DNA of 64,000 bases from positions 5,227,837-5,291,836 of the forward strand of contig NZ_KI912270.1 in the NCBI RefSeq assembly GCF_000243415.2. The letters are read 5' to 3'. This DNA comes from Mycolicibacterium tusciae JS617. Its GTDB lineage: Bacteria > Actinomycetota > Actinomycetes > Mycobacteriales > Mycobacteriaceae. Positions 46,967 to 62,920 of this stretch are shown one piece after another (positions within the stretch are counted from its first letter, which is position 1; every line of letters begins with the position of its first letter). The position numbers and the translations under genes are program-made. Under the pieces are notes generated by a model. The model had not been told where the DNA came from. It saw nothing but the letters and a program-made list of their open reading frames with translations, and made no database searches.

Positions 46967-47140
46967 ATGGGGCAGCTGAGGCGGACACCGCAAGGCTGGG
47001 CCGAGCCCGGACCGCCAGCCCTCTGCCCACAAGGCCACCGACTCCGCGGCCCGCAGCGCGTCCTGGTCGGCACGCAGCAGTGCGCGGCCTGCTCCAACCG
47101 CGGCAGTGGAATCCACCGCTCATATACGTGCCGCCACTGA
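46967..47140 (+). CDS. Small zinc-ribbon-like protein, 57 aa
   Basis: 57 residues, too short for most gene finders. LRRTPQGWAEPGPPALCPQGH opens it (first Cys at 20, His at 24), then a Cys-x2-Cys pair (QQCAACS, residues 39/42) and HRSYTCRH near the end (Cys55, His57), giving enough ligands for one zinc. The last residues look cut; homologues, as I recall the pattern, continue with a further Cys. No strong ribosome site because of the palindrome. Moderately sure it is a real gene. Confidence 0.5.
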   Translation: MGQLRRTPQGWAEPGPPALCPQGHRLRGPQRVLVGTQQCAACSNRGSGIHRSYTCRH

Positions 47141-47294
47141 GCGGAATTGCATTTGTTGCAACAGTTCGGCGCTCGTTAGAGCGTCGTTGTCCCTGGTGAA
47201 ATCCCGTCCCGTTAGGCGAGGTGACATCGATGCGCTCGCCTCAACTGCGCGTCTTCCTCTATCGCATCATTGTTGCATCTGCTACAACAAGGGT

Positions 47295-48227
47295 GTGGGT
47301 GTTGATCTGCCGGGTTCTGCGGCGTTGTCGTTGGTGTCGAAGGTCGCGTCGTTGGATCCGCAGGAGGCGGTGTTTCGGGCGATGATGGCGGGCTGGTCGG
47401 ATCAGCAGCGGGCGCGGGTGTGCTTGCCGCCGACGATCCTCGCGCGAGCGAGTGTGGTTCGGCGGTTCGGCGATTTCACCGGGACCCATCCCTGGCAGTG
47501 GACCGCTGAGGACGCTGACGCGTTCTTCTCATCGATGAGGTCGGGTTCATCGCCGAAGGCGGTTTCGACGCTACGCGGGTATCAGAACGCGTTGCGATTG
47601 TTCTGCGATTTCATCACCGACCGCCGATACGGGTGGGCCGCACTGTGCCTGGAGCGGTTCGGGCAGCCGCCTGCTCAGATCTTGCACGACTGGAACACCG
47701 TGACACATGTCACCGAGTTCGAAGGCAGAGCCGGTCGGCGTCCGCTGAGTTTCGACGAGGTGCAGGAGTTGTTCGACGCAGCTGACGGGTTGGTCGAGGC
47801 CGCGCGTAGTCGTCACCGCAAGGGCAGTTTGTCGGCGTTGCGAGACGCCGCCATGCTAAAGACGGTGTACGCGTATGGACTTCGCCGCCAAGAGGTGGTG
47901 GGCCTCGACATCGTCGATCTGCGATCGAATCCGAAGGTTCCGGCGTACGGCCGCTTTGGTGGGTTGTTCGTCCGCCATGGCAAGGGGTCGCATGGCGACG
48001 CGCCGAAGCGTCGCACGGTGTTGACCGTTCCGGAAATGGATTGGATCGTCGGCGTCCTGGAGCACTACGTCGCCGAGGTACGGCCGTGTTTTCAGCCCGG
48101 CCGCCATCCCGGCTTGTGGATCACTGAACGTCAGGGGCGCTTGTCCAAGCGCAGCGCCAACGAGGCGTTCACCGCGGCACGGGATGCGGCCGGCTTGCCC
48201 AAGGAACTCGATTTGCACTCGCTGCGC
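47295..48227 (+). pseudogene. Tyrosine integrase, 5' part (split at HxxR motif)
   Basis: Start put at GTG 47295 (upstream open frame is Cys/Arg-rich). N-terminal SAM-like domain (GWSDQQRARVCLPPTILARA, WQWTAEDADAFFSSM). Catalytic domain opens with the first Arg box MLKTVYAYGLRRQEVVGLDI and continues to LWITERQGRLSKRSANEAF and LDLHSLR. The next codons belong to the inserted element (frame ends FVPA at 48245). The missing end, with His, LGH box and catalytic Tyr, is at 54339-54518; joining at 48227/54339 gives LHSLRHTYVTHL and a 370-residue integrase. Confidence 0.85.
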
Positions 48228-48290
48228 CGCTTTGTCCCCGCTTAGTTCCCGTGTTGCGATAAGCCGGGAAGGGGCTGGTGGCCTTGGTGT

Positions 48291-49805
48291 TTGGCGGTTG
48301 CGTCGAGTCGTGTGGTGTTTCTAGCCTGTTCGCTTGTGATCCTGAGCTTCTTCTCGTCGCAAGGCTGGCGGTCCTGGGATGTCGAGCACCGGCCGGTGAT
48401 TCCGGAGGGGATGCCGGTGCTAATCGATGACGACCTGCTGTTCGAGGACGGCCTCGGGGCGCCGCGATCGGTGTCGGTGGCGAACCGGTGGCTGCGGCTG
48501 CTTCCGGCCAGCGGGGCGCCGGCGCCGAGTTCGTGGGAGAACTACGCGCGGGCAGTCAAGGAGTGGACGGAGTTCCTCGCTGAGCACGGGATCGGGTTGT
48601 TCGACACCCGCGACCGGCTCAAGGCCGGGCTGAGCCGGTATGCCGAGCACCGCGCGGCCGGGCCAATTTCGGCGAGGTTCGCTGCGACCACGTGGTCGCA
48701 GCACATGAGCATCCTGTCGCTGTTCTACCGGTGGGCGATCGACGAAGGAGTTGCCGCTGCCGAGCCGTTCACCTACCGGTCGGCGCGGGCGGTCTTCGCC
48801 GGCACCGGCCGCGATGTCCGGGTGAATCTGGCGTCGCGCCGCACCCCGAAACCACACGTGACCATCAAGTATCTGGAGCCGGACTTCACCGACCTGTTCC
48901 GCAAAGGGTTACGCGGTTTGGCACCGGATGGCAACCGCGACAGCGGGTTCGCGGGCCGGGAGATGACCCGCAACGCCGCGATCGGGGATCTGGCGTTGGC
49001 GACCGGGTTGCGGTTGGGCGAGTTCACCCATCTGCTGCCGTGGGAGGTTCCGGCGCTGCCGCTGGCGCCGACGGCGATTCCGATCCCGTTTCCGGTGCCG
49101 GCGGGAATCACCAAGGGCCGCAAGTTCCGCACTACCTGGATCTCTTACGACGCCCTGGCCGGGCTGCACGACTACCTGGAGCTTGACCGCGCGGCCGTCA
49201 CCGAAGGGTCGGCCTGGCGACCGCCGCGACGGTGGGGTGAACCGCTGCTGGTGAGCGACCCGGATGCGCGGGGTGGCCGGGTCAACGGTGTTCGCCGGTC
49301 GTGGGAGTCGCTGACCCCGGCCGAGCGGCGTCGGCTGGTGGCACCGAAGGGCGGGTCGTGCCTGCTGGCGGTGAAAGCCGATGGTGGCCCGTTCACGGCG
49401 TGGGCGACGGTGTTCGAGCGCACCGCCGACCGGATCCGCGCGAGGTTCGAGCCACGGTTCCCGCATGTTCACCCGCACCGGCTGCGGCATTCGTTCTCGA
49501 TGCAGACCTTGGAATATTTGGTGACCGGCTACTACCGGCAGGCGGCAAAGCTGGTGCGCGACACCGACGCCGACGCGGCGCTGGTGTTCTACCTGACCAA
49601 GGCCGATCCGCTGCTGGTGCTGCGGGACCTGTTGGGTCACTCGACGGTGTTGACCACGGAAAAGTATCTGAAACGCCTTGATACGACCCGGATTTACCGG
49701 CAAGCCTACGAAACCGCCGGCGTGGAATCCGGACTCGTCGGCGAGGACGCCGCGCAGCGGGAATCCGACGCCGAATTCCACGACGACGCCGAGGAGGTGT
49801 TGTGA
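48291..49805 (+). CDS. Tyrosine recombinase 1 of trio (TnpA/RitA-like)
   Basis: Up to 504 residues; the first 35 look unlike protein, and the likely start is GTG 48396 or ATG 48411 (GMPVLIDDDLLFEDG, with GGAGG just before). Core-binding domain: PSSWENYARAVKEWTEFLAE. Catalytic boxes: LALATGLRLGEFTHLL (Arg I), HVHPHRLRHSFSMQTLEYLV (HxxR), LRDLLGHSTVLTTEKYLKRL (LGH box with probable Tyr in EKYL). All four key residues present, so probably the active enzyme of the trio. Confidence 0.85.
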   Translation: MAVASSRVVFLACSLVILSFFSSQGWRSWDVEHRPVIPEGMPVLIDDDLLFEDGLGAPRSVSVANRWLRLLPASGAPAPSSWENYARAVKEWTEFLAEHGIGLFDTRDRLKAGLSRYAEHRAAGPISARFAATTWSQHMSILSLFYRWAIDEGVAAAEPFTYRSARAVFAGTGRDVRVNLASRRTPKPHVTIKYLEPDFTDLFRKGLRGLAPDGNRDSGFAGREMTRNAAIGDLALATGLRLGEFTHLLPWEVPALPLAPTAIPIPFPVPAGITKGRKFRTTWISYDALAGLHDYLELDRAAVTEGSAWRPPRRWGEPLLVSDPDARGGRVNGVRRSWESLTPAERRRLVAPKGGSCLLAVKADGGPFTAWATVFERTADRIRARFEPRFPHVHPHRLRHSFSMQTLEYLVTGYYRQAAKLVRDTDADAALVFYLTKADPLLVLRDLLGHSTVLTTEKYLKRLDTTRIYRQAYETAGVESGLVGEDAAQRESDAEFHDDAEEVL

Positions 49806-51530
49806 TGCCGACGATGGTTGTTGACACTCCGCTCGGTCTGAGCTGCGTGTTCAGTGACGGCAGCAGAGCCGAATTCGACCTTACGGGGTCGCCGAACCCC
49901 AGGTTGGCGCGCGATCTGGCCGTCGGTTTGGTGGAGCTGATACACCCCCACGGCAGTGCCGATACCGCTGGCACGGTCGGCCACTACGTGCGTGGGTTGC
50001 ACAGGATGGTGCGAGCGCTCGCCGATCAGGGGTTCACCGGCGGCATCGCCGATCTGCGGCGCGGGGCAGTTGGCGCAGTTCTGGATGGCGGGCCCGAACT
50101 GGTTGGAGGCGCTGACTCGGTCCTTGGTGGAGGGTTACGCGCGATCCGGCGGCCGTGTCGGCGACGGCGTGGTGGAACTGGCCGCCGGGCGGCACTTCAA
50201 CATTCAGCCGAATCGGCGGCCGTTGCCGCCCTACTCCGAGGCTGAATGGCAGCGACTTACCGCGGTCTGCCGACAGCAGGTCGATGACTCCTATGCCACG
50301 CATCGGCATGCGTTGGCGTCCGTTCCCGGAGGGCGGCATCCGGGCGCGGGCGCGTGGTCTCACCAGAACTTCTGCTGGTTGCTGGCGACGCACGGCCCTC
50401 TCGGCAGCTGCGAGGCCGCTGAGACGATTGGCATGTCTATCAACGTCTTCCGCCATCGAGGAGTCACCACTGTCTTCCACGAGGCTGCGCAAGCGATGTT
50501 CCCGCACCTCGAAGTCGTGGTCGCCTACCGGCTGCTGTTCGGGATCTACTCCGGCATCGTCCCGGACGGTATCGCCGACCTGGAGGTCGGAGACATCGAC
50601 TGGGCCGGGGATTCGACTGTTCTGCTGTCCTATGTCAAACGCCGCACCGCCGCCGAGAGCACCACCTTGCCGCGGCCAGCGGTGCGGTTGCTCGAGCAGT
50701 GGCTGGCGCACTCGGCGCTGCTGCGCCGCTTCGTGCCACCGGACGAGCGCACCACGCTGTGGTTGGGGATGAGCCAGCCCGGTTACTCCCGCCGCCTCGG
50801 CGAGGTGAACCGGTCGGCGACCGGGCGGTGGATGCAACGCCACAGCATCGTCGGCGACGACGGCGAGCCGCTGAAACTGCACCGGTCCCGCATCCGCACC
50901 ACGCACCACGCGATGCGAGACAAGAAGTCCTGGACCGGGAATGCGCGCGCCACGATCGACCCGAACCACACCCCGGCGGTCGAGGGCGACCACTACCTGT
51001 CGGCAACGACTCCCGGCCAACGCCACGCCGTCGAGACGATCATCGCCGACGCCCAGCACGACATCCTCCGCCGCGCACACCCACCGACCGTGATCACCGC
51101 GGAAGACGCCGCAGCACTCGTCGAGGGCTACCCGCAACTGCTGGCGGTGATGAAGCTCGACGAAGGCGTGCTCGCCGAGCTGGTCGGTGGCACGCGGGAT
51201 GTATTCACCGCGGCCTGCGCCGATCAGCTTTCCGGGCTGCACGGACCGGCCGGGAAACCATGCCCGGCACGTCCGTGGGTCTGCCTGCTTTGCCCGCTGG
51301 CGGTGTTCGCTCCCCGGCACGCGGTGAACCTGTTGCGGCTCAAGGCATTCTTCTCCCGCCAGTGGCAGCAGATGCCCGCCGCCCACTTCATGACCGTCTT
51401 CGGCCGCTACGCCGCCCGGATCGACCAGATCCTGGACCGCTTCGACCCCGCCGAACTCACCGCCGCAGCCACAAGAATCACCGACAGCGACAACGAAATC
51501 CCCTTGCGCCCGGAGGAACTCACCGCATGA
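49802..51530 (+). pseudogene. Recombinase 2 of trio, one +1 frameshift
   Basis: Begins ATG 49802/49805 (ATGA overlap). Reads well to GIADLRRG, then a GGGG at 50063-50066 shifts the frame; dropping one G gives GQLAQFWMAGPNWLEALTRS and continuous protein to 51530, about 575 residues. Integrase-like core, but box I is degenerate (GIYSGIVPDGIADL lacks the usual Arg); a HRSRIRTTHHAM segment may be box II and GDHYLSA the Tyr region. A Cys cluster (CPARPWVCLLCPLAV) near the C-terminus is typical of this subunit. The frameshift may be a consensus error. Confidence 0.75.
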
Positions 51531-53731
51531 CAAGCACAATCGCGACCACGGCACCCGGCACACCCCCACGGTCCCCGTTCACCGGCGCCGACATCTGCCG
51601 CGAAGCCGGGCTCACGCTGCCAGACCGCACCTCACGACCGGTGTTCGACGACGACCTGTGGGATTTCACCGACGTCGTCGGGCTCCCGGTCCAGATGGCC
51701 CTCTACCGGCGGCGATTCGACTTCACCACCATCACCGACCCACGTTGGCGGCTGGTCGTCAAGGAGCTGATCCTGGCGCTGCTTGCCCCGAACCATGATG
51801 CCGTGGTTCGGCTGCCGCGCGCCTACCGCACCGCACTGCATCTGACCAGCTGCTACAGCCGACTCTACGAGGCCGGGACGTTCTTCGGCTGGCTCGACCG
51901 GCGGGGAATCACTGCCCTCACCGAAGTCGATACCCGCCTCTGCGAGGACTACCTGGGATTCCGACGCTATGTCACCGACTCCGACGGCACCGTCGTGGGC
52001 GAGCAGAGCCCCGGCCTCCGGCGCGCTGCCGCGCAGATGATCGTCGACCTGGTCGACTACCGTGACCTGTTCACCACCGACCGGGTTCCGGCCGATCTGC
52101 GTCCTTGGGGCGGCGCGACAGCGTCAGCGGTCGCCGAAATGCCTTCTGGTCGTGAGGGAAACAAGACGCCGGCCGTCCCTGCCGAAGTGCTGCAGCCGAT
52201 GCTCGCCGCGGCCTTGCACCTGGTGCAGACCCTCGGCCCACACGTTGTCGAGCTGCACGAGCAGATCCGCCACATCGACCGCATTTGGGCTACGAAGGCA
52301 CCGGGCCTTCGTCATGGCTCGTCGGCGATGATCAGCGACATCAACAAACTGCTGGCCGACCACAGGGTGACCAACACGCCTCTGCCGATGCTCGAAGACC
52401 ACGATGTCAGACGCCGACTCACGGCTGGCTGGGACGCGAACAACCCGCTGCTGCCGGTCTCCACCGGAGCCCTGGCCCGGCAGGCCGGATACGTCCAGTT
52501 TTGGGCGAAATGGATGCCCGCGCTGCGCAAACCGCTGATCGACACCCTCCACACTGTCGGAGTCGAGAAGGTTTTCGCCCGCAACGCCGCACAGGCACCG
52601 ACCGCCGACGACTCAGCCCTGTTGCCCTGGACACTGCCACTGCACCGATCCGAAGCGGTCGCCCTGATCGGCATCACCCGCACCGCGGCCATCGTGGTCC
52701 TGGCCGCCGCGTCCGGAATGCGGGCCAGCGAGCTGATGGAACTGCGGGTCGGCTGCTGCCGCCCGGTCGAGGAACCGATACCCGGTCTGAAGCGCTACCG
52801 CGTCGCCAGCAAGATCATCAAAGGCCAGGGCCTGGGTGGCACCGACGACGAATGGGTCGTCATCGAACCGGTCCACCGCGCAATCGAGCTCATCGAACAG
52901 CTCCATGACGACCCCCACGAGGGCGCTCTTCTGCTGTCCCGGTTCAGCTTCCGGGTCCGTTACCTATGGTTTCGCGCCTGGGTGAACTCCCCGGCCGGGG
53001 CCCGCCTCGGACTCGCCCCGATCCCCGACGAACCAGTAGCACTGCGGATGCTGAGGCGCACGGTTGCGTTGGAGATGGCTTACCGGCCCGGCGGTGTTCT
53101 CGCAGCAAAACTGCACCTCAAACATATCGCTGCCGCCACTACAGAAGGCTATGCGGCTCGACCGGGCGGTGCTCAAGCGGAGTTGCTGGCCGAAGTCAAC
53201 AAGCTCGAGGCCGACCACAAACTCCAGCTCGTGCTGGCCGAGTTCCGCAACTACCAGCAAGGAATCCTGCCCGCCGGGCCCGGTGCCCGCAACCTGACCG
53301 AATTCTTCGCCAGCATCGACACCGACCTCGACACCGAAGCGATTGCGGCGCCCAAGATCCAGCGCAACGACCGCGACATCCTCAACCTGCTGTCCAAACG
53401 CGCGAAGGCACTGCATCTCGGCCCGGCGAACTATTGCTGGTTCACCGATCCCTCGCGCGCACTCTGCCTGAAACTCGCCGGCACCCCGACCTCGGACCGC
53501 CCGATGATCGGCATGTGTGACTCCGCGCGCTGTCCGCAGGCCACCCACCACCAGCACCACCGGCCCATCTGGGCCGAGCACGCCGAACTCACCAAGACCC
53601 TCCTCGGCCAACTCGGCAAAACCCGCACCACCGAACACACCCGACTACAGACCGACTACGACCGCGCCGTCCGGGTCATCACCAGCATCGACACAGCCAC
53701 CGGGACCGGCGCAACCGAGGAGCAAGCATGA
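51527..53731 (+). CDS. Recombinase 3 of trio
   Basis: 734 residues from ATG 51527 (ATGA overlap); the frame is open far upstream but that part is antisense-like Arg-rich noise. Box I Arg in LAAASGMRASELMELRVG, box II in ALRMLRRTVALEM (His replaced), LGH-like HLKHIAAATTEGYAA with the probable Tyr. A C-terminal Cys/His region (MCDSARCPQATHHQHHR) may bind zinc. Such large subunits act with the other two in Tn554/RIT-type transposition. Confidence 0.82.
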   Translation: MTSTIATTAPGTPPRSPFTGADICREAGLTLPDRTSRPVFDDDLWDFTDVVGLPVQMALYRRRFDFTTITDPRWRLVVKELILALLAPNHDAVVRLPRAYRTALHLTSCYSRLYEAGTFFGWLDRRGITALTEVDTRLCEDYLGFRRYVTDSDGTVVGEQSPGLRRAAAQMIVDLVDYRDLFTTDRVPADLRPWGGATASAVAEMPSGREGNKTPAVPAEVLQPMLAAALHLVQTLGPHVVELHEQIRHIDRIWATKAPGLRHGSSAMISDINKLLADHRVTNTPLPMLEDHDVRRRLTAGWDANNPLLPVSTGALARQAGYVQFWAKWMPALRKPLIDTLHTVGVEKVFARNAAQAPTADDSALLPWTLPLHRSEAVALIGITRTAAIVVLAAASGMRASELMELRVGCCRPVEEPIPGLKRYRVASKIIKGQGLGGTDDEWVVIEPVHRAIELIEQLHDDPHEGALLLSRFSFRVRYLWFRAWVNSPAGARLGLAPIPDEPVALRMLRRTVALEMAYRPGGVLAAKLHLKHIAAATTEGYAARPGGAQAELLAEVNKLEADHKLQLVLAEFRNYQQGILPAGPGARNLTEFFASIDTDLDTEAIAAPKIQRNDRDILNLLSKRAKALHLGPANYCWFTDPSRALCLKLAGTPTSDRPMIGMCDSARCPQATHHQHHRPIWAEHAELTKTLLGQLGKTRTTEHTRLQTDYDRAVRVITSIDTATGTGATEEQA

Positions 53732-54195
53732 GAATCACTGCCGCCCAACGCATCCACAACGAGAACTGCATCCGCGCCGCCATGGACCGGCTGCTGCGCG
53801 GCGAGATCCCGCCCGGCGGCAGCTGCGATATCAAGACCCTCGCACTCGAGGCCGGGGTCGACCGCACGGCGTTCTACGGCACCCGGCCCTACGCGCACCT
53901 ACGCACCGAATTCGAGCACCGACTCCAGCAATTGCAAGAGGCGGGAGAAACCCCGGACCCGAAAGTCGCTCAGATCGAACGCCTCAAAGCAGAGGTTGAC
54001 AAGCTCAAAACCAACCTCGCCCAATCCAATTCCACAATCCAGGACCTCACCGACTTCCGGAGCCAGGCCCTGGCCCGCATCGCTGCCCAACACGACGAGA
54101 TCCTTCGACTCCGCGCCGCCGACAACCCGGCAGCAGCCGTCACCTGCCTCCAGAGTCGCCCGAAACCCCGGCAGAAAGTAATCGGACCATGCTGA
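53728..54195 (+). CDS. DUF6262/TnpC-like accessory protein
   Basis: 155 residues, ATGA overlap. N-terminal TetR-like HTH segment: CDIKTLALEAGVDRTAFYG. Then a coiled coil (IERLKAEVDKLKTNLAQSNS...ILRLRAA). Equivalent to TnpC of Tn554, which modulates insertion. The end falls 143 bases before the element's right end. Confidence 0.8.
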   Translation: MRITAAQRIHNENCIRAAMDRLLRGEIPPGGSCDIKTLALEAGVDRTAFYGTRPYAHLRTEFEHRLQQLQEAGETPDPKVAQIERLKAEVDKLKTNLAQSNSTIQDLTDFRSQALARIAAQHDEILRLRAADNPAAAVTCLQSRPKPRQKVIGPC

Positions 54196-54338
54196 CCCCG
54201 TCGGCAGTGACGTCCATCACAAACGATTTGGGTTTATCGCCACACGATCGGCAATCAGCGTCACGAACTACGCGCCGAGAATCGGCCACGTCAAACGCAA
54301 CACGAACCCAACCGCACACGACCACTGCGGAGACAAGA

Positions 54339-54518
54339 CACACCTACGTCACACATCTCACCGAGTTCGACTACCCAGAGCGCTTCGTGCAAGACCAAGT
54401 CGGACATGCCTACGCCAGTACCACCTCGATCTACAGCCACGTGTCCGACGAGTACCGCAACCGCCTGCTGCGCGCGGCGCTCACCAAACGTGGCGTCATC
54501 ACCGAAGGTGAACCATGA
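54339..54518 (+). pseudogene. Tyrosine integrase, 3' part
   Basis: HTYVTHLTEFDYPERFVQDQ then VGHAYASTTSIYSHVSDEYR: the final His, the GH box and the catalytic Tyr (SIY or nearby) of the integrase split at 48227. 59 residues, without its own start. Its stop overlaps the start of the XRE gene by 4 bases, so the original order was integrase-XRE-zinc-ribbon recombinase. Confidence 0.85.
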
Positions 54519-54841
54519 TCCGAAAGATGGGCTGCCAGTGGCACCTTCGCACACTGATGGCGCAGCAGGGGATGTTTCAAACCACGGAGCTCGTGCCGCT
54601 GCTGGCCGAGCGTGGCGTCGTGCTGTCCCGCGAACAGGTCTTCCGTTTGGTGACTCAGCCTCCGCAGCGGCTCTCGATGGACGTTCTGGCGGCGTTGTGC
54701 GACATCCTCGACTGCACACCCAACGATTTGGTTGAGATCACCGTGGTCAATGCCGCAGCCAAGAAGGTCGCCGGTGGGGCCGCCCCGTCGCCGCCGACGG
54801 TCCGGCGCACCACGGTGCGCCGCCCGGACCACACTCGGTGA
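54515..54841 (+). CDS. XRE-family HTH protein of integrase cluster
   Basis: 108 residues. HTH: WHLRTLMAQQGMFQTTELVP, LAERGVVLSREQVFRLVTQP, LSMDVLAALCDILDCTPNDL, the pattern of phage Cro/C1-like proteins. Overlaps both neighbours by ATGA. Probably regulates or assists the integrase and the zinc-ribbon recombinase. Confidence 0.8.
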   Translation: MIRKMGCQWHLRTLMAQQGMFQTTELVPLLAERGVVLSREQVFRLVTQPPQRLSMDVLAALCDILDCTPNDLVEITVVNAAAKKVAGGAAPSPPTVRRTTVRRPDHTR

Positions 54842-57075
54842 AGGGTTCGGCGGACTTTCGGCCCGACGCGTGGGCCCGGGTCACCGCCCGCCTGGTCGCC
54901 GACATCGACGGCCTGTCCGTCGAGGCGGCCGAGCGCCTGCTCACCGATGCCCGCGTGAACCGCCCCAAGACGCTCAACGCCGTCGACTGCTACCTGGCAA
55001 TCACGCCCGGCGGCGTGTGCGACCCAGACTCCGCGTGCCCCCGCGGCATGATGCGATTGAGCCACATCCTGCTCGCCGCCGGATACACCACGGTTCACCC
55101 ACCGCAGTGCACTCAGTGCGGCCAGCGCTCGGCACTGACCAATGTCGGCCCGTCCGGGCGAATTTGCGAACACTGCCTTCGAGCCAACCGCCCCACAGTT
55201 CTCTGCGCGCGCTGCGGGAAGCCAGCTCTGCACCGACGCAATTCCGCCGACGGCGTAGTCTGCTCGAACTGTTATAGCCGGGACCCCTCTTCGAAAGCGC
55301 CATGCCACCGGTGCGGGCGGGTGGGGCACCGTCGGCGTCGCCTCCCTTGCGGAGGCGTGCTCTGTCCAGCGTGCGCTCCCAGGCCCCAACACACCTGCGT
55401 CGAGTGCGGCAAAGACCGACCCGCGCAATCCATCACCGAGAACGGGCCGATCTGTAGCACCTGCTACAGCCGAATCAACATGTCGTGGAGCTGTGCCGCC
55501 TGCGGCGCGCTCCGCCGAAGGAAATCCGGCGGCAACGTCGGTCCACATATTTGTGGGATCTGCCGACGCGCACTACGCAACGACGTCCAGAAGGCCTCGA
55601 CGCGGACAGCGCTACCCGCGTCGCGGCCACCCAGAGTTGCCCCGATCTGCGTCTTCTGCCGGCGGCAACGCCCGATAATGAACCGATGGCCAGCAGGCCC
55701 GGTTTGCAAGGTGTGCGCCAAGCGGGCGCGGTCTTACCCGGGGATCTGCGGGACGTGTCAGCAGTCTGCGGTCCTCATCGGACTCAACGACCATGGTGGG
55801 CGGATCTGCGGACCGTGTGCAGGCGCCTCGCTCGATTACCGTTGCCGCAATTGCGGGCAGGCCGGCATGCACGCCAACGGTCGGTGCAGCCGCTGCGTCA
55901 CCGCCCAGCTCCTTGATGCCGCCTTGGGTGGCCACGACGGCCAGATACCTGACCAGTTGCGGCCGCTGGCCGACGCGTTGGCCGCCGCACCCGATCCTCG
56001 CAGCGTTGCCGTCTGGCTCGCCCGAAGCGACGCCGCGCGACTACTGAGAACCCTTGCCGAATGCGGAGAAACGGTCACCCACGACCTTCTCGACGCCTTG
56101 CCGCCCGGACGGCAGGTCAACTACATCCGCGAAATCCTGGTCCGCACATCGGTATTGCCGATGCGCAACGAGCGTCTCGAGCGACTCGAGCCGTGGCTGG
56201 ATCGCTACCTCGCCGACCAGCCAGCCGACCACACCCTGATGGTCCGCAACTACGCCGTCTGGTATCTCCTGCATCGTGCCAGGCGAAGCCCCCGACCGTT
56301 GGTCACGGCAGGGGCGGCTCGTATCCGGCGCAGAGTGCGCGTCGCTCTCGAGTTCCTCACCTGGTGTGACGCCCGTGGGAGGTCCCTGACCGACATCGAT
56401 CAGGGCGACGTGGACACCTGGCTGGCCACCGGAGACTGGCGCCGGCCAGAAGTGCGACCGTTTCTGCACTGGACGACCCAACGCCGCATCACTGGCGCCG
56501 TCTCCGCGCCGGCACCCAAGCCCGCTCCACCGTCGGTCTTCATCGACGAAGCAACGCACCTCGAACAATTGCACCGCTGCCTGCACGACGACGGTATCGA
56601 CGTCGATCTGCGCGCCGCGGGCGCCCTCATCCTGCTCTACGGCATAGCCACCTGGCGAGTGCTCAACCTACGACGAAACCAGGTACATACGCGTGACGGC
56701 GAGACCTTCCTGGTCCTGCGCGACCACGAACTGCTGCTGCCACCCCAGCTGGCCGACCTGATGGCTCAATTACCGCGCTCCACACGACGATCCACATTGC
56801 CGGACTCCGACGCCTCGGATCGGCTGCTGTTTCCCGGCCGAACTCCCGATCGACCCGTCGACACCGGCGGATTCGGCAAGCGACTCAAACGCAGCGGCCT
56901 GACCATCCGAGCCGGCAAGAACACCGCCCTGCTCGGGCTGGCCGCCGAACTTCCCGCAGCCGTTCTCGCCGACCTGCTCGCCATCGACGTCGGCACTGCC
57001 ACCCGGTGGGCCACCTACGCCAAGACCGAATGGAACGACTACATCGCAGCACGAACCTCCGGCGACAACGGGTAA
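54838..57075 (+). CDS. Multi-zinc-ribbon protein with degenerate tyrosine recombinase domain
   Basis: 745 residues from GTG 54838. Residues about 85-370 hold some ten Cys-x2-Cys knuckles (CTQCGQRS, CARCGKPA, CHRCGRVG, CVECGKDR, CAACGALR, CVFCRRQR, CGTCQQSA, CRNCGQAG), i.e. a string of zinc ribbons. The C-terminal 350 residues resemble a tyrosine recombinase fold (FLTWCDARGRSLTDIDQGDV as core-binding; LILLYGIATWRVLNLRRNQV as box I). HxxR and the Tyr are not clear, so catalysis is doubtful. Co-occurs with an integrase and an XRE protein in actinobacterial mobile DNA. Confidence 0.78.
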   Translation: MKGSADFRPDAWARVTARLVADIDGLSVEAAERLLTDARVNRPKTLNAVDCYLAITPGGVCDPDSACPRGMMRLSHILLAAGYTTVHPPQCTQCGQRSALTNVGPSGRICEHCLRANRPTVLCARCGKPALHRRNSADGVVCSNCYSRDPSSKAPCHRCGRVGHRRRRLPCGGVLCPACAPRPQHTCVECGKDRPAQSITENGPICSTCYSRINMSWSCAACGALRRRKSGGNVGPHICGICRRALRNDVQKASTRTALPASRPPRVAPICVFCRRQRPIMNRWPAGPVCKVCAKRARSYPGICGTCQQSAVLIGLNDHGGRICGPCAGASLDYRCRNCGQAGMHANGRCSRCVTAQLLDAALGGHDGQIPDQLRPLADALAAAPDPRSVAVWLARSDAARLLRTLAECGETVTHDLLDALPPGRQVNYIREILVRTSVLPMRNERLERLEPWLDRYLADQPADHTLMVRNYAVWYLLHRARRSPRPLVTAGAARIRRRVRVALEFLTWCDARGRSLTDIDQGDVDTWLATGDWRRPEVRPFLHWTTQRRITGAVSAPAPKPAPPSVFIDEATHLEQLHRCLHDDGIDVDLRAAGALILLYGIATWRVLNLRRNQVHTRDGETFLVLRDHELLLPPQLADLMAQLPRSTRRSTLPDSDASDRLLFPGRTPDRPVDTGGFGKRLKRSGLTIRAGKNTALLGLAAELPAAVLADLLAIDVGTATRWATYAKTEWNDYIAARTSGDNG

Positions 57076-57513
57076 GAGCCATCCGCTGGCGACTCGGATG
57101 GTCAGCCGATGCGGGGTTCGGCGGCAAATAAGAGGCTCGAAGCCCACTCTGGTAACACTCCCACCGCTGTGAACGGTGCGGACTCTGGTTGCCGGCCGAG
57201 GCGAGATTTGTCTGGCCCGTGCCTTGGGGGACACGAAACCGGCCACGGCAAACTAGGCCCATCGGCACTGCCGCAGCCGGTACCTTCGGCCGGGTGCCGA
57301 AACTATGGCAGTCTGCACCCCCAACGACTCAAACGGCTGTGATATCGCCCGCGACCGCCTTCAACGTCGCCCTCCACGCGCAACGTGAGTGTTTGCTGCG
57401 TTGCACCGTTGCTTTCCGGGCGCGTGAGGTAATCGCGCGACCCAATCGGTCGAATTCCTCACTCCATCTGGCGTTGTCGGTGCGAGCCAGCCCAGCCGCC
57501 TGACTCTCAGGGC
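57076..57513. other. Intergenic between recombinase cluster and IS1081-like element
   Basis: 438 bases; no gene supported. A stretch at about 57130-57175 resembles the T-arm end of a tRNA on the minus strand but the stem does not pair. The 11-base direct repeat ACTCTCAGGGC begins at 57503. Confidence 0.45.
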
Positions 57514-57557
57514 GGTCAAGTCCCGGGAAGTGGTGTAGTGCTGCGTGATCCGGTGGG

Positions 57558-57789
57558 TTAGGCGGTGAGGGCAGGCATGTCATCGGCTCCTATTTCGGGG
57601 TTGTCGTTGCTGATGGTGGTCAGGCGGCATCGGGCGAGGACGTCGAGGCCGAGGTAGCGGCGGCCTTCGGCCCATTCGTCGTTCTGTTCGGCCAGCACGG
57701 CACCGACGAGGCGGACGATGGCGTCGCGGTTGGGGAAGATCCCGACGGCGTCGGTGCGGCGGCGGATCTCTTTGTTGAGGCGTTCCTGG
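57558..57789 (-). pseudogene. IS1081-like transposase, 3' part
   Basis: [54 protein letters not shown]: the C-terminal end of IS1081-type transposases, starting with the catalytic Glu just after NNPQ. Not visible as a gene by itself as it has no start. Joined with 61762-62777 it makes 416 codons, i.e. 415 residues, the length of IS1081 transposase. Confidence 0.88.
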
Positions 57790-57886
57790 GTTATCTGTAG
57801 TCCGGCGGTCGGGCAGGGTTGTGACCTGCTGGTTTGCGGTGTGGACGGTGTCCGCGACGTGCTCTTGGCGCTCGGTTGTCGCCCAG

Positions 57887-58315
57887 TCAGCAGGGGTCGA
57901 TTGTTATCGAATCGCGATCTCGGGCGGGTCGCTTGTGGGTGTCGTCGCGGGCTTGTCCGAGAGCATGGGCGAGTTGGTGGCGCAGTCGCTGATTCTGTTC
58001 GGCGAGTTCACGGTTGCGGCGAAGTGCGACGTCGAGGCGCTGGCGCAGGGAGTCTTCCCTGGCGCGTTGCCGGGCTGGCGGAGCCTGGTCGTGTTGCGGG
58101 CGGCGTAGCGCACGGATGCGGTTGATCTCGTCTTTGAGGTCGGGCTGGGTGTAGAGCCAGGACCGGGAGACACCGGCGTGTTCGGCGACGGCTTCGAAGC
58201 TGATCTTGGTTCCGGCGCGGTCGAGTTCGTGCAAGGCGGCGATAGCTTTTGCGCGGGTGAGCTCGTGACGCTGCTTGGCTGCGGTGACGATGTGAATGCT
58301 GTTGTCAGCTCGCAT
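57887..58315 (-). CDS. tnpC: TnpC-like protein (DUF6262)
   Basis: 142 residues. HTH-like [20 protein letters not shown] after a helical N-terminus ([19 protein letters not shown]). C-terminal coiled coil ([20 protein letters not shown]). Overlaps the end of tnpB by 11 bases. Same family as the protein at 53728. Confidence 0.85.
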
Positions 58316-60530
58316 GTTCGGCTGCCGTCGGATCGGTGGGAGTGTCGAGCGAGGTGATGATGGCGTCGAGGTTGCCCAAAACCTGGCGGTTCATCTCGGC
58401 CAGCCGTTTGTGTCCGCGAGCTTCTGCTGCTGTGATCAGTTGCAGTGTCTGCTTGCGTTGGGTCCGATGTTGCGGCAGGAATTCCTGGGTGGTGAGGAAC
58501 ATGGGGCAAGTCAGGCAGGCGTTGGCGTGTGGGCAGCTCTGTTGGACGGGCAGACCGCAGTAGCCGTTGGGTAGGGCTTGGGTGGCGCGACCGAGGCGTT
58601 GTTTGGCCCAAGCGGCGTCGGCCATCGGTCCGTCTGGGTCGAGGTTGACCTCACGCCCGTGGCTGTCGACTTTGCGGGCGGCTTCCCAGGCTCGGCGGAC
58701 GGTGGTGTCGTGCAGGCGAGCGTAGTGGGCGGTCATCTGCGGTGAGTCGTGGTCGAGGATGTGGCGCACGACCTCTTGCGGAACGTCGCGGTTGATCAGG
58801 CGGGTGCCGAGCGTGTGGCGCCACTGGTGCGGCGTCAAATGCACCCGCCGGTTGTGCTCGTCGCGGATGTCGCAGGCTGCGAGCCATCGGTGCATCGCCT
58901 CGCGGTAGGTCGGGATCCCCAGGGGGACTTGGCCGTCGATGTTCTTGGTGGGGCGCGGGAACAGCAGTCCAGTGCCGCCGGGCCAGCGTTCGGAGACGAG
59001 TCGGCGTTGGTGGCCGATCATGTCGACGAGGTCTGGGGCGATCGGAACAAGGGCGTCCCGCTTCATCTTGTGGTTGAAGTAGCGCAGATAGGGTGCCCCG
59101 TCGGCGTCTGTGGTGACGCAGTCGCCGCGCAATCGCAGGGCGTCGGTGATCCGGAGCCCGCAACGCATCAGGATGACGGTGATCAGTCGATAGGCAGGGT
59201 TGTTGAACTGGTCGAGGTTGTCGTGGTGTTCGAGCTGGGTCATGACGTGTTCGGCCAACGCTCTGGGCAGGTGTTCGCCGCGCTTGGGGTGGTCCTCGGC
59301 GAAGAACATCGCAGTGTCGGGAAGTCCTGTGGCCCAGCAATGTTGGCGGATCGCGGCAAAGAACCCATTGAGCAGGCCGATGTGGGCGCCTCGGCGCTGT
59401 GGGCTGTATTCCTGGTTCAGGTGCGCGAGGTAGCGTTCGAGCAGTTCCCGGTCGATCCGGCTGATGTCGTCGATGTCGACGTCAGCGAGAAATCGTCCGA
59501 ATCGGGCGATGGCCAGCAGCGGGCGTCCACCGCCTGCTTCGAGGTTGAGTCCGCGTGAGAGGCGCAGCCGGATCCATCGTTTGGCCGGCTCTCTGAGCCA
59601 GGGTTGCGGGATGCGGTCGAACCGCAGTGTGTAGTGGCCTTCGTAGCCGAGCCGGTGCATCCGCCAGACGTCGCGTGGGTATTCGGCTTCCCAACCTCCG
59701 GCCTCGGCCAAGTCCAGCATGGTGAGGTGGGCATAGAGCAGCAAGCCGCGAGATCTCGTGTCGTTGAGTAGCACGGCTGAGCGTTGCCGCCATTGGTCGG
59801 CGTCGAAGTCGAGCAGCGAGGTGGTGGCGGTGTCTATCAGTAGTCGGACCACCCTGGCGACAACGGCCGGCGTCAGCTTGCCGCGTCGGTCGTCGTGGCG
59901 TTGCTGCAGTACGTACTGCATCTCCAGTTTGAGCTGCGGCGTGAGCATCCCGAGCTGAATCGTCTCGTTTGCCGGTGTGTCGTTGGATTCGAATCTTGCG
60001 ACGAACTCGTCGATATCGTTGCGGTCGTTCGCTTTCCAAGTGTTGGTGTGGGAATGGCATAGCGGCGACTTGGCCTGCGGCCATAACGAGCAGTGCCCGA
60101 TCTGGCAGGTCGCGCCGGGCCGGGGCTGTTTCACCGGCAGCGGATCACGTAACCACGAGGTCAGGGGCGGTCGCCCGGCGCGTTCCCACCGTTGCGCGTG
60201 CAGCTGACACAATCCGCGGCGAGCCGACCCGTAACCGCAGCCGTCGACCCGACATGCCTGGTTGGGGCGATGTTTGCGCCAACGCGGGTCGGTCGAGGCA
60301 GTGAACTCTTCGAGGTCGGGGCGGCCCGCGTTGGCCCATCGCTGGTGGTGACCTTGACAGAGGCCATGGCCACGGGCGCTGCGTCCGCAGTCGGTGACGC
60401 GGCAGGACCCTCCACCGAATACGGCGTCGTCCGAGGCGAACTCCAATGCGTCGCTGCGGAATTCGGCGCGAACACCGGCTATGAGCAGGCCCAGCAGGCC
60501 CGGCGTTGAGTTGGGCTCCAGGGCGGTCAT
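58305..60530 (-). CDS. tnpB: TnpB-like large tyrosine recombinase
   Basis: 741 residues from ATG 60530 (ATGA overlap with tnpA). The N-terminal third has three Cys-rich repeats: CRVTDCGRSARGHGLCQGH, CRVDGCGYGSARRGLCQLH and CQIGHCSLWP...CHSH, each able to bind zinc. The catalytic domain has VILMRCGLRITDALRLRGD (box I), VHLTPHQWRHTLGTRLINRD (HxxR), VRHILDHDSPQMTAHYARLH (box III and Tyr). A last Cys cluster (SCPHANACLTCPMF) follows. Full set of catalytic residues. Confidence 0.88.
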   Translation of the reverse strand: MTALEPNSTPGLLGLLIAGVRAEFRSDALEFASDDAVFGGGSCRVTDCGRSARGHGLCQGHHQRWANAGRPDLEEFTASTDPRWRKHRPNQACRVDGCGYGSARRGLCQLHAQRWERAGRPPLTSWLRDPLPVKQPRPGATCQIGHCSLWPQAKSPLCHSHTNTWKANDRNDIDEFVARFESNDTPANETIQLGMLTPQLKLEMQYVLQQRHDDRRGKLTPAVVARVVRLLIDTATTSLLDFDADQWRQRSAVLLNDTRSRGLLLYAHLTMLDLAEAGGWEAEYPRDVWRMHRLGYEGHYTLRFDRIPQPWLREPAKRWIRLRLSRGLNLEAGGGRPLLAIARFGRFLADVDIDDISRIDRELLERYLAHLNQEYSPQRRGAHIGLLNGFFAAIRQHCWATGLPDTAMFFAEDHPKRGEHLPRALAEHVMTQLEHHDNLDQFNNPAYRLITVILMRCGLRITDALRLRGDCVTTDADGAPYLRYFNHKMKRDALVPIAPDLVDMIGHQRRLVSERWPGGTGLLFPRPTKNIDGQVPLGIPTYREAMHRWLAACDIRDEHNRRVHLTPHQWRHTLGTRLINRDVPQEVVRHILDHDSPQMTAHYARLHDTTVRRAWEAARKVDSHGREVNLDPDGPMADAAWAKQRLGRATQALPNGYCGLPVQQSCPHANACLTCPMFLTTQEFLPQHRTQRKQTLQLITAAEARGHKRLAEMNRQVLGNLDAIITSLDTPTDPTAAEHAS

Positions 60531-61636
60531 AGGTTCACCTGGGCCTTTCCGATGAACCAGCCCGCGTGCTCCATCGCCTTGCGGGCGTCCTCCACGTTCA
60601 GATGCCCGTATGTCGCGGCGGTGACGGTGACATTGGCGTGGCCGAGCAGCTTGGCCACGACCTCCAATCCGATCCCGTCGCGCAGCATCCTGGTCGCTGC
60701 GGTGTGGCGCAGCCAATGCGGGTCGAAGTCGATGTCCGTGCGCCGGCGCAAACGGCGGACCAGGTCGTAGACCGCGCTATAGGTCAACGGATGGCCGTGT
60801 GGCCGCCCCCAGAGGTTGACGAAAACGTAGTCGCTGTCGAGGTCGCCGTATTCAGCGTGAAGGTAATCGGCATACAACCGAATCAGTTCCGCGCTCACCG
60901 GAACGGTCCGGACCGTCAACGATTTGGCGCGGGCTCGGTTGTCGCTGTCACGCCGACAAACTGTGATCTGCCGATCAGCGGCGGCGATGTCGCTGTGACG
61001 CAGCCCCAGCGCCTCACCGATGCGCATCCCGGTGTCATAGAGCAGCGCCAACAGGAACCGATCCCGCAACCGGTCACACGCGTCCAGCAGTGTTTGGATC
61101 TCGCCGGGGATCAGCACTCGCGGCAGCTTCTTCGGCGCCTTCAACGACACTGTTCGCCGGGGTAGCGGCATGTGCTTGCTGATGTGGTGCAGAAACGGCT
61201 TCCAACCGCCTCTCGACCCTCCGATCTGCCAGGTCGTCAGCAGCTCGCCGACCTCGATCCCGTCGCGAACGGCGTGCAGATAGAACGCCGCCAACGCCGA
61301 CAGCTTCCGGTTCACCGTTGACTCGCCGCAGTGATGCTCCACCGAGGGCAGCACGGCGATCGCGCCCTGCCGCAGCGCCGTGGGCAGCCGCAGCCAGGCG
61401 ACGAACGCGCCGATATCCTCCAGACTCACCGACCGCCAGTCCAGGCCGCACCCGCCCAGGAACGTGAACCAGTCCTTCAGATCATGGGCATAGGCCTTGA
61501 TCGTGTTCGGCGACCGCTCTATGTCGGTCAAATACTTCAGATACCGCTCCACCGGTGCCACCGGCACACCGTCCTCGCCGAGGACGGTGAACGATTCACG
61601 CGACGAGAGCGGTGAAACCACCTTCACAACAAGCAC
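60527..61636 (-). CDS. tnpA: TnpA-like tyrosine recombinase
   Basis: 369 residues (Tn554 TnpA is about 361). Core-binding domain LKYLTDIERSPNTIKAYAHD. Catalytic boxes: LLYDTGMRIGEALGLRHSDI (Arg I), DPHWLRHTAATRMLRDG (HxxR), AKLLGHANVTVTAATYGHLN (GH and Tyr). Complete, so the element may be active. Starts 110-120 bases inside the right end. Confidence 0.92.
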   Translation of the reverse strand: MLVVKVVSPLSSRESFTVLGEDGVPVAPVERYLKYLTDIERSPNTIKAYAHDLKDWFTFLGGCGLDWRSVSLEDIGAFVAWLRLPTALRQGAIAVLPSVEHHCGESTVNRKLSALAAFYLHAVRDGIEVGELLTTWQIGGSRGGWKPFLHHISKHMPLPRRTVSLKAPKKLPRVLIPGEIQTLLDACDRLRDRFLLALLYDTGMRIGEALGLRHSDIAAADRQITVCRRDSDNRARAKSLTVRTVPVSAELIRLYADYLHAEYGDLDSDYVFVNLWGRPHGHPLTYSAVYDLVRRLRRRTDIDFDPHWLRHTAATRMLRDGIGLEVVAKLLGHANVTVTAATYGHLNVEDARKAMEHAGWFIGKAQVNL

Positions 61637-61761
61637 ATCGATCCTCCAGGCTCTGCTTCATGGACGGCTGGAGATAACCACATCCAGAACGCAGAACCGA
61701 CCACTTCGAGACTTCGTGGTCCACATGAAAGACGCTCACCGCAGCACTACAGATAACGGCG

Positions 61762-62777
61762 GGGTTGTTGGACCAGATCTGGGTCCAGACGTCTTTGGGG
61801 AATGCGGTGAAGGCCAGGATGTCTTCGCGTGCAGCACTGAGGTGTTCGGCCACGGCGGGCAGTTTGTCGGTGACGTAGTCGATGAGCCGGTCGAATTGCG
61901 CGGCCACCGCGGGTGCGTCAGGTTGGTCATAGACGCTGTGCAGCATCGCTTTGACTGCCGGCCACATGCTCTTGGGGCAGATGCTCATCAGGTTGGCCGC
62001 GTAGTGGGTGCGACACCGCTGCCAGGCCGCTCCGGGCAGGTTGGCCGCGATCGCTTCGCGTAGGCCGGCGTGGGCGTCGCTGGTGACCAGTCGTACGCCG
62101 GCCAGCCCGCGGGCGACCAGGTCGGCGAAGAACTCGTTCCAGGCCGGGCCAGTCTCGCTGGTGACCACGCGCATGCCCAGGACTTCGCGGTGTCCGTCGC
62201 CGTTGACGCCGGTGGCCAGCAGCACGACCCCGTTGACCACCCGCCCGCCTTCGCGCACCTTCATCGTCAACGCGTCCGCGGCGACGAAGGTGAACGGGCC
62301 AGCGGAATCGAGGGGGCGGTGGCGGAACTGCTCGACGTGCTCGTCGAGGTCGGTGGCCATGCGGCTGACCTGCGATTTGCTTAGCGAATCGATGCCCAGG
62401 GTCTTGACCAGCTTGTCCATCCGCCGCGTGGAGACGCCGGCCAGGTAGCAGTCGGCCACAACGGTGATCAGCGCTGATTCGGCCCGCTTGCGGCGTTCGA
62501 GCAGCCAGTCGGGAAAGTAGGTTCCCGTGCGCAGCTTGGGAACTGCGACATCGATGGTGCCCACCCGGGTGTCCAGGCCGCGGTGACGGTAGCCGTTGCG
62601 CTGCGCTCGCCGTCCCGGTGTGGGCTGGCCCCATTCGGCGCCCACGACGGCATCAGCATCCGCCGACAGCAGGGCGTTGATCACGGTCTGCAGCAGTGAG
62701 CGCATCAAATCTGGCGAGGCTTCGGAGAGGGCCTCGCCAAGAAGGCCTGCAGGGTCGACAATGTGGGGTGCGGTCAT
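61762..62777 (-). pseudogene. IS1081-like transposase, 5' part
   Basis: Starts ATG 62777 behind GGAGCAT; a longer frame to 62855 lacks a ribosome site. Reads GLLGEALSEASPDLMRSLLQ, NGYRHRGLDTRVGTIDVAVP, FTFVAADALTMKVREGG (first Asp), LVTSDAHAGLREAI (second Asp), and ends at QIWSNNP, just before the catalytic Glu. From there it reads into the transposon (AVICSAAVSVF) to 61596. High similarity of motifs to IS1081. Confidence 0.88.
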
Positions 62778-62920
62778 CGTGATGCTCCTCGAGGATTCTG
62801 TGGAAGGTTGACTCGAAGGATCACGCGGTGGCCGCTTTACGTCCATCACCGACACGATGACGAACCCAGCAACCGCGCTACACCACTATGCGGGACTCAA
62901 CTCTCAGGGCAAAGTTGGTG

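Follow-up and report, generated by a model that had tools for sequence, protein, structure and literature searches.

Tyrosine-recombinase transposons of Mycolicibacterium tusciae within active-site motifs of other elements' recombination genes, their predicted attachment sites

Mycolicibacterium tusciae JS617 carries, in a stretch of 64,000 nucleotides of contig NZ_KI912270.1 (positions 5,227,837 to 5,291,836; hereafter the window), two transposon-like elements that encode their own tyrosine recombinases and, with high confidence, sit in conserved active-site motifs of the recombination genes of other mobile elements, which are their predicted attachment sites. Element 1 divides a tyrosine-recombinase gene with a PF00589 domain at its HxxR box (LDLHSLRR / HTYVTHL; a slash marks the break here and below), and element 2 divides an IS1081-like transposase gene of the IS256 family at its NNP/E codon (IWSNNP / ERLNKE). 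The HxxR and NxxE motifs and the tyrosine have catalytic roles in these enzymes. Both divisions had been put forward in a reading of the DNA letters alone (the original prediction) and are confirmed here, and the four element ends proposed there lie within 4 bp of the refined ones. The ends of element 1 were set by alignment with its other copies in the same genome, in two of which the alignment continues beyond, the flanks being alike too (Table 1).

Uninterrupted homologues of both target genes were sought by searching each half separately against other genomes. Of 11 foreign loci fetched for the integrase target, L235, L236 and L237 were omitted because their matches end early; in seven of the remaining eight the two halves adjoin, with 99.7% and 98.3% identity in L231. 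The halves of the transposase target adjoin in 10 of 14 loci; one exception (L245) is cut short, and the other three are interrupted at the same codon, by a relative of element 2 in L246 and, in L249 and L250, by DNA whose start resembles that of a further element described below (L214).

A DNA search of the 7.3-Mb genome with the left end of element 1, in which scoring covered 40 of the 78 initial candidates, found nine copies that are about 100% identical, the one in the window included, and all nine occupy the HxxR box of a tyrosine-recombinase gene. Four kinds of gene are involved: apart from the target in the window, five copies lie in a common gene (VVPYAYRH/SYAQRHAD), L117 in PHDFRR/LFATDAV, and L118 and L123 in LHSLRR/SYATHL. 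A genome-wide PF00589 search likewise returned nine right halves, all starting at profile position 105. The TnpA recombinase of element 2 occurs seven times in the genome in near-identical form, once broken into two frames, and each of the seven copies found of the element interrupts an IS256-family transposase at the NxxE codon (PF00872 position 337/338), in several genes: the window, L124, L125 and L127 (NNPQ/), L128 (CSTNAI/ES), L129 (YTTNAI/ES) and, in reverse orientation, L126. The same insertion sequence (IS) is the target in L124 and L125. Every one of the six IWSNNP-type genes among the PF00872 matches carries an insertion at the NxxE codon, which is element 2 in five genes and the element of L214 in one. 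The genome holds 45 PF00872 and 73 PF00589 matches, each set filling less than 1% of the 7.3 Mb, yet these contain every copy found; this concentration at one codon each (7/7 and 9/9) is therefore more than chance. Since all 16 copies lie in such motifs, it is likely that the elements home to active-site motif sequences of other mobile elements. The bases at the right of element 2 read CCAGG in six of the seven copies despite differing target genes (GATCG in L127), whereas the left-hand core varies with the target.

Table 1. Features of the two elements and their target genes (window positions; E values follow family accessions; aa, amino acids)
Feature	Position	Strand	Remarks
Element 1	48231..54337	+	6107 bp, four genes
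Element 1, imperfect inverted repeat at ends		+	TTTGTCCCC / GGAGACAAG
Target of element 1, tyrosine recombinase, 5' part	47106..48230	+	terminates ..LDLHSLRR; PF00589 2.3e-07
Target of element 1, tyrosine recombinase, 3' part	54338..54518	+	HTYVTHL..VGH..Y; PF00589 3.5e-09, profile 105-170
Element 1 gene 1, tyrosine recombinase 1, 504 aa	48291..49805	+	PF02899 1.6e-06; PF00589 9.3e-06 (below PF00589 cut-off)
Element 1 gene 2, 524 aa	49956..51530	+	sits where SE Tfp does; role suggested by gene order
Element 1 gene 3, large protein, 734 aa	51527..53731	+	recombinase motifs by eye only
Element 1 gene 4, 155 aa	53728..54195	+	TnpC/GinD/Srap position
Element 2	57790..61757	-	3968 bp repeat to repeat; tnpABC; perfect 12-bp terminal inverted repeats
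Element 2, left terminal repeat	61746..61757	-	GTTATCTGTAGT
Element 2, right terminal repeat	57790..57801	-	ACTACAGATAAC
tnpA, tyrosine recombinase, 369 aa	60527..61636	-	PF00589 5.7e-37
tnpB, long tyrosine recombinase, 746 aa	58305..60545	-	start uncertain; PF00589 1.1e-17
tnpC, DUF6262	57887..58315	-	PF19776 7.7e-13
Target of element 2, IS256-family transposase, 5' part	61758..62855	-	terminates ..IWSNNP; NF033543 3.4e-83; PF00872 to profile position 337
Target of element 2, transposase, 3' part	57558..57789	-	PF00872 337-378
Element 2, right-hand core	57785..57789	-	seems carried along with the element

Relatives of element 2 extend this pattern to other genomes. The sample comprises 81 loci, namely the best 80 of 255 TnpA relatives (by similarity, in named genomes) and the window. 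Fifteen lack a usable junction, 13 of them at contig edges or runs of N (L002, L003, L009, L010, L011, L019, L020, L028, L029, L037, L062, L063 and L070) and two with an end not found (L015 and L021). A candidate junction is present in the remaining 66, of which 50 fall in conserved motifs of recombination genes and 10 at an intergenic motif, with 6 left without assignment. The 50 comprise 15 loci at the IS256 NxxE motif (in either orientation), 12 at the tyrosine-recombinase motif FVQ/..VGH and one at another integrase-like motif (L049, of which only 25 aa are available), nine at IS5 GKKINGR/GRKRH, four in IS1380, four in Tn3 (three at NRLGF/ and one at a second motif), three in TniB and two in other DDE transposases. 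An enrichment in recombinase codons, which the original prediction had expected of relatives, is thus seen in close ones, which are not spread over unrelated sites. Its narrower claim that active-site codons are the targets holds for the copies in the own genome, whereas many relatives use conserved motifs that are not catalytic, such as the Tn3 N-terminal domain, FVQ/..VGH of integrases, GKKINGR of IS5 and TniB; catalytic codons are perhaps frequent as targets for being the most conserved.

By Pfam profile, different loci are broken at matching points. The position recurs at PF00872 337/338 in five of five pieces and at position 47 of PF13700 in three of three, and the break in PF13701 falls at 351/353 in two of the three IS1380 pieces scanned, the third (L051) being without match. 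Both pieces of L024, L035, L051 and the left piece of L059 are without Pfam match and were classed by motif. In a bulk Pfam scan of 47 of the 50 junction peptides (L022 and L027 yielded none by the rule applied, and the window was omitted), matches were obtained to PF00872 (10), PF00589 (10), DUF4096 (5), DUF4158 (3), DDE_Tnp_1 (3), TniB (2), DDE_Tnp_1_4 (2) and DDE_Tnp_1_6 (1), placing 33 of 47 in recombination families provided that no peptide counts in two families besides DDE_Tnp_1. Among 68 control peptides taken 2.5-4 kb away, the corresponding matches are rve 4, rve_3 3, Mu-transpos_C 2, PF00589 2 and Tn3 1, at most 12 among the 25 families listed of 91, the other 66 families having one peptide apiece; the contrast is a rough one, as junction peptides were chosen by motif and controls by length. 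A rival reading is unspecific insertion, with only hits in dispensable mobile genes persisting. In its favour, such genes, besides being dispensable, abound in the neighbourhood of these elements, as some transposases among the controls illustrate; it is nonetheless extremely improbable, being already contradicted by the recurrence of one exact codon per clade across diverged genes.

The insertions of the element 2 type are independent, because identical elements share a target codon although the gene sequences flanking them are only 66% alike: in L038 and L039 the elements are identical over the first 1200 nucleotides (nt), whereas the 200-nt left flanks are 66% alike. Comparable figures for element versus flank are 98 versus 61% in L034/L044, 96 versus 65% in L067/L080 and 92 versus 62% in L077/L078; in L005-L008, which share one IS256 subtype, flanks are about as alike as elements. 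The relatives group into clades that differ in target motif. On a TnpA tree of 79 rows, 57 of which carry a target label, the labels require 12 changes, against a minimum of 30 and a mean of 36.7 in 300 label shuffles; target preference is therefore heritable and has been switched several times. A single old insertion, copied together with its host element, could account for the five element 1 copies with common flanks and for L124 and L125 in the same IS, but as a reading of the whole it is very improbable, given that near-identical or identical elements have flanks only 61-66% alike, that the target genes in this genome include several unrelated ones and that one codon is entered in both orientations (L126). 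Excluded as a general cause, such co-inheritance may explain the five-copy subset.

Those five copies (L116 and L119-L122) lie within a multi-recombinase element of 15.6 kb that is itself present five times and consists of about 7.37 kb, element 1 and about 2.1 kb. The common left flank spans 7.3-7.4 kb at 99.8-99.97% identity, and the right flank of about 2.1 kb is common to four copies (99.0-99.9%), the fifth sharing 1.5 kb at 96-97%. Four copies (L119-L122) have differing outer flanks, and there the 15.6-kb element has its boundary in four different integrase genes, roughly one codon after the catalytic tyrosine (LNHYA/, LDLYG/, EAIYT/ and GDIYG/), the PF00589 match in each stopping at profile position 168-170; L116 meets the contig end on its left side and has a different right flank. 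Element 1 in a recombinase codon of the 15.6-kb element and the latter in integrase codons thus constitute nested codon insertions. The arrangement fits hitch-hiking of element 1 inside the larger element, although five separate insertions are also possible, and single-nucleotide polymorphisms among the nine element 1 copies do not separate the two. Two further kinds of element occupy similar positions. The 3.0-kb element of L214 (2406-5422), with two recombinase domains and different ends (GTTAACCGG.. / ..CCGGATAA; similar starts occur in L249 and L250, from two other genomes), occupies the same IS256 NNP/E codon, which is convergence. The third type, of 3.7 kb and with two recombinases (L215 2754-6491 and L216), is inserted in two different genes of the IS256 family, in both at the CVVHL motif.

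Plasmids and DUF6262 loci provide additional relatives. Among 12 plasmid relatives looked at, six lie in recombination genes, four (L259, L260, L262 and L263) have ends that were not resolved, and two adjoin a JAB-domain gene. The best three named matches, from M. riyadhense, M. dioxanotrophicus and M. intracellulare, are all at IS256 NxxE, while others lie in a serine resolvase (Streptomyces), in TniB (Rhodococcus) and at integrase FVQ/ (Arthrobacter). Scans of viral contigs with both recombinases gave no match. A DUF6262 search of 394 genomes of the class was positive in 22, the window's included (33 places). For the 23 loci outside the window's genome, a candidate right end was found in 11 and none in 12; by motif, six of the 11 lie in recombination genes (IS1380 two, IS3-like, integrase, IS5 and IS110-like). 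A brute-force inverted-repeat search of the DUF6262 loci gave mostly noise, and just two results were kept from it, L223 with IS5 on either side and the IS3-like right half of L130. The TnpA relatives of L130 (own genome, 5.31 Mb) and L221 are about 55% identical, and the right flanks resemble IS3 OrfA (RENAELKRAN/ and KNRELEETN/). IS3, IS110, YedK (below) and serine resolvase are provisional labels given by motif, to which the record annotation adds in the case of the resolvase, and not by a hidden Markov model match of the piece.

For element 1, the HxxR box is also used outside the genome, in L131 (88% aa identity, HMLRH/), L084 (72%, HAFRH/) and L136, a Streptomyces chartreusis plasmid (73% nt identity, LHDLRH/).

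Several observations weigh against this picture. Ten TnpA relatives lie at an intergenic motif (AACGACC / GACCGTTTCTGA), several adjoining ordinary genes, and six candidate junctions (L012, L017, L018, L054, L071 and L076) are without an assigned target. For L012 and L017 the candidate left end lies inside a long open frame (a transporter gene in the case of L017); these two ends and that of L009 are about 2 kb upstream of tnpA and may be chance matches. One DUF6262 end falls in a YedK-like host gene and four (L146, L154, L155 and L165) are without assignment. No HxxR motif was found in the left flank of five more distant element 1 relatives (L088 and L132-L135, 50-65% aa identity) or of three on plasmids (L137-L139, 66-70% nt identity). 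In the own genome, at least 17 intact IS256-family NxxE genes are unhit (7 TTNPIES, 9 TSNPVES and 1 STNCIES). The two plasmid relatives that adjoin a JAB-domain gene belong to Bacillota; the site of Tn554 is radC, and we take this neighbour to match what is expected of that site. The sequence-specific targeting of mobile-element genes advanced in the original prediction thus stands for conserved recombinase and transposase codons entered by independent insertions; more distant relatives use other sites.

The intergenic-motif group (motifs like TCAGAAACGGTC/GACCGTTTCTGA) consists of L013, L014, L016, L023, L030, L031, L032, L036, L043 and L047; in L023 a resolvase gene follows directly after the junction.

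It is accordingly possible, if rather unlikely, that Tn554-type elements evolve specificity for conserved motifs in general, mobile genes being merely the commonest of these, with no adaptation to parasitism. The intergenic motif, the YedK-like gene and the JAB-domain neighbours in Bacillota favour such conserved-sequence specialists, as do the GInt elements, reported in ssb and transporter genes (PMC5385486). Against them, targets of TnpA clades switch among at least six families of recombination genes, none of the 66 candidate junctions is assignable to a housekeeping gene (six being without assignment), and three further kinds of recombinase-coding element in the genome also lie in recombinase codons.

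Comparison with known systems places the two elements differently. In element 1 only the first gene has Pfam recombinase matches; HxxR and LGH..Y motifs are visible by eye in the 504-aa recombinase 1. The 524-aa and 734-aa proteins are without Pfam or NCBIfam family match, and the 155-aa protein is without a Pfam family and hence without DUF6262, so that the association with DUF6262 proposed originally applies to tnpC of element 2 and does not extend to element 1. Homologues are annotated as site-specific integrases for genes 1 and 3 and as hypothetical for genes 2 and 4, and relatives keep the order of the 734-aa and 155-aa genes. Long zinc-ribbon-like proteins adjoin interrupted recombinase genes in the window (54838-57075; DZR_2, below cut-off) and in L210 (5630-8050), and are perhaps part of the host elements.

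The original assignment of element 1 to the RIT type is abandoned. According to PMC10214605, a whole RIT set consists of three recombinases of 315-410 aa, all catalytic, which proteins of 504, 524 and 734 aa and a fourth gene of 155 aa rule out. The four-gene plan, ending in a small TnpC-like gene, and the site-specific insertion instead fit GInts (PMC5385486) and SEs (PMC10214605), whose operons encode three recombinase-like proteins and a small one; the second protein is without recombinase match, as the SE Tfp lacks a catalytic motif (PMC10214605). This likeness rests on gene plan rather than sequence comparison, and the HxxR boxes used by element 1 are unlike the GInt sites and the few selected locations reported for SEs in PMC10214605.

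Element 2 follows the Tn554-related plan, with two recombinases (one of them long) and TnpC/DUF6262 in one direction, and shares with Tn554 of Staphylococcus the tnpABC order and a donor-derived core at one junction (CCAGG, 6/7). Its TnpA is 99% identical to the nearest named match, from Mycolicibacterium pyrenivorans, and, among the matches listed, 33-39% identical over 91-99% to plasmid proteins of Staphylococcus, Enterococcus and Bacillaceae, whose labels do not name Tn554. The actinobacterial Tn554-related transposons (Van Houdt 2012, PMC3414803) similarly combine a short recombinase (about 350 aa), a long one (611-828 aa) and a TnpC-like third gene in the same direction, and their hosts are Mycobacterium, Streptomyces and Rhodococcus, as here. 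The section of that account on them defines the class, leaves its attachment sites open, supposing several similar attB sites, and names no insertion sites, whereas the sites here are motifs of other elements' recombination genes. Unlike Tn554, for which the same account gives a unique insertion site, the target genes of the element 2 group are mobile and clade-specific. In Tn554-related elements and SEs, six bases of the target are left on the side of intA and those of the donor move to the far side (PMC10214605), a footprint rule that the core of element 2 resembles.

No report of such codon targeting was found in the literature searched (open-licence PMC papers). Transposons of the Tn5053 type reportedly hunt a site of other transposons, namely resolution (res) sites, whereas the present elements aim at enzyme codons. 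Helper-embedded phage-inducible chromosomal islands are likewise said to include a clade of integrases directed at genes of a different mobile element; they differ in using prophage late genes and in their satellite biology.

The most economical reading is that conserved DNA constitutes the recognition signal. The recombinases of either element (TnpA/TnpB in element 2) would bind a short core of conserved codons and insert a circular intermediate at it, the donor supplying the core base pairs of one end, as in Tn554-related elements and SEs. Motifs of mobile recombinases may act for these transposons as tRNA genes do for integrative elements, being dispensable, multi-copy, conserved and horizontally spread, so that a parasite tuned to them would find landing sites in many hosts and ride along; its benefit would be safe landing sites of this kind. 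The split enzymes are expected to have lost their function, so that the invaded element would be put out of action where no sibling enzyme works in trans; the silencing of the hosts and the mobility gained from them, both advanced in the original prediction, are inferences.

On balance, we lean towards a radiation of tyrosine-recombinase transposons repeatedly retooled to signature codons of IS256, IS5, IS1380, IS3, Tn3, TniB and serine or tyrosine recombinases, amounting to a dedicated hyperparasite layer with three-deep nesting in one genome (element 1 in the 15.6-kb element in integrases). The actinobacterial Tn554-like transposons, whose sites were left open in 2012, thereby gain a sharp and testable target rule, in which signature codons of enzymes are the attachment sites. 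If true, closely related recombinases with differing, readable specificities would be useful for studying target change in tyrosine recombinases, and Tn554-like transposons would be natural brakes on transposons, which would explain some of the "broken" transposases and integrases.

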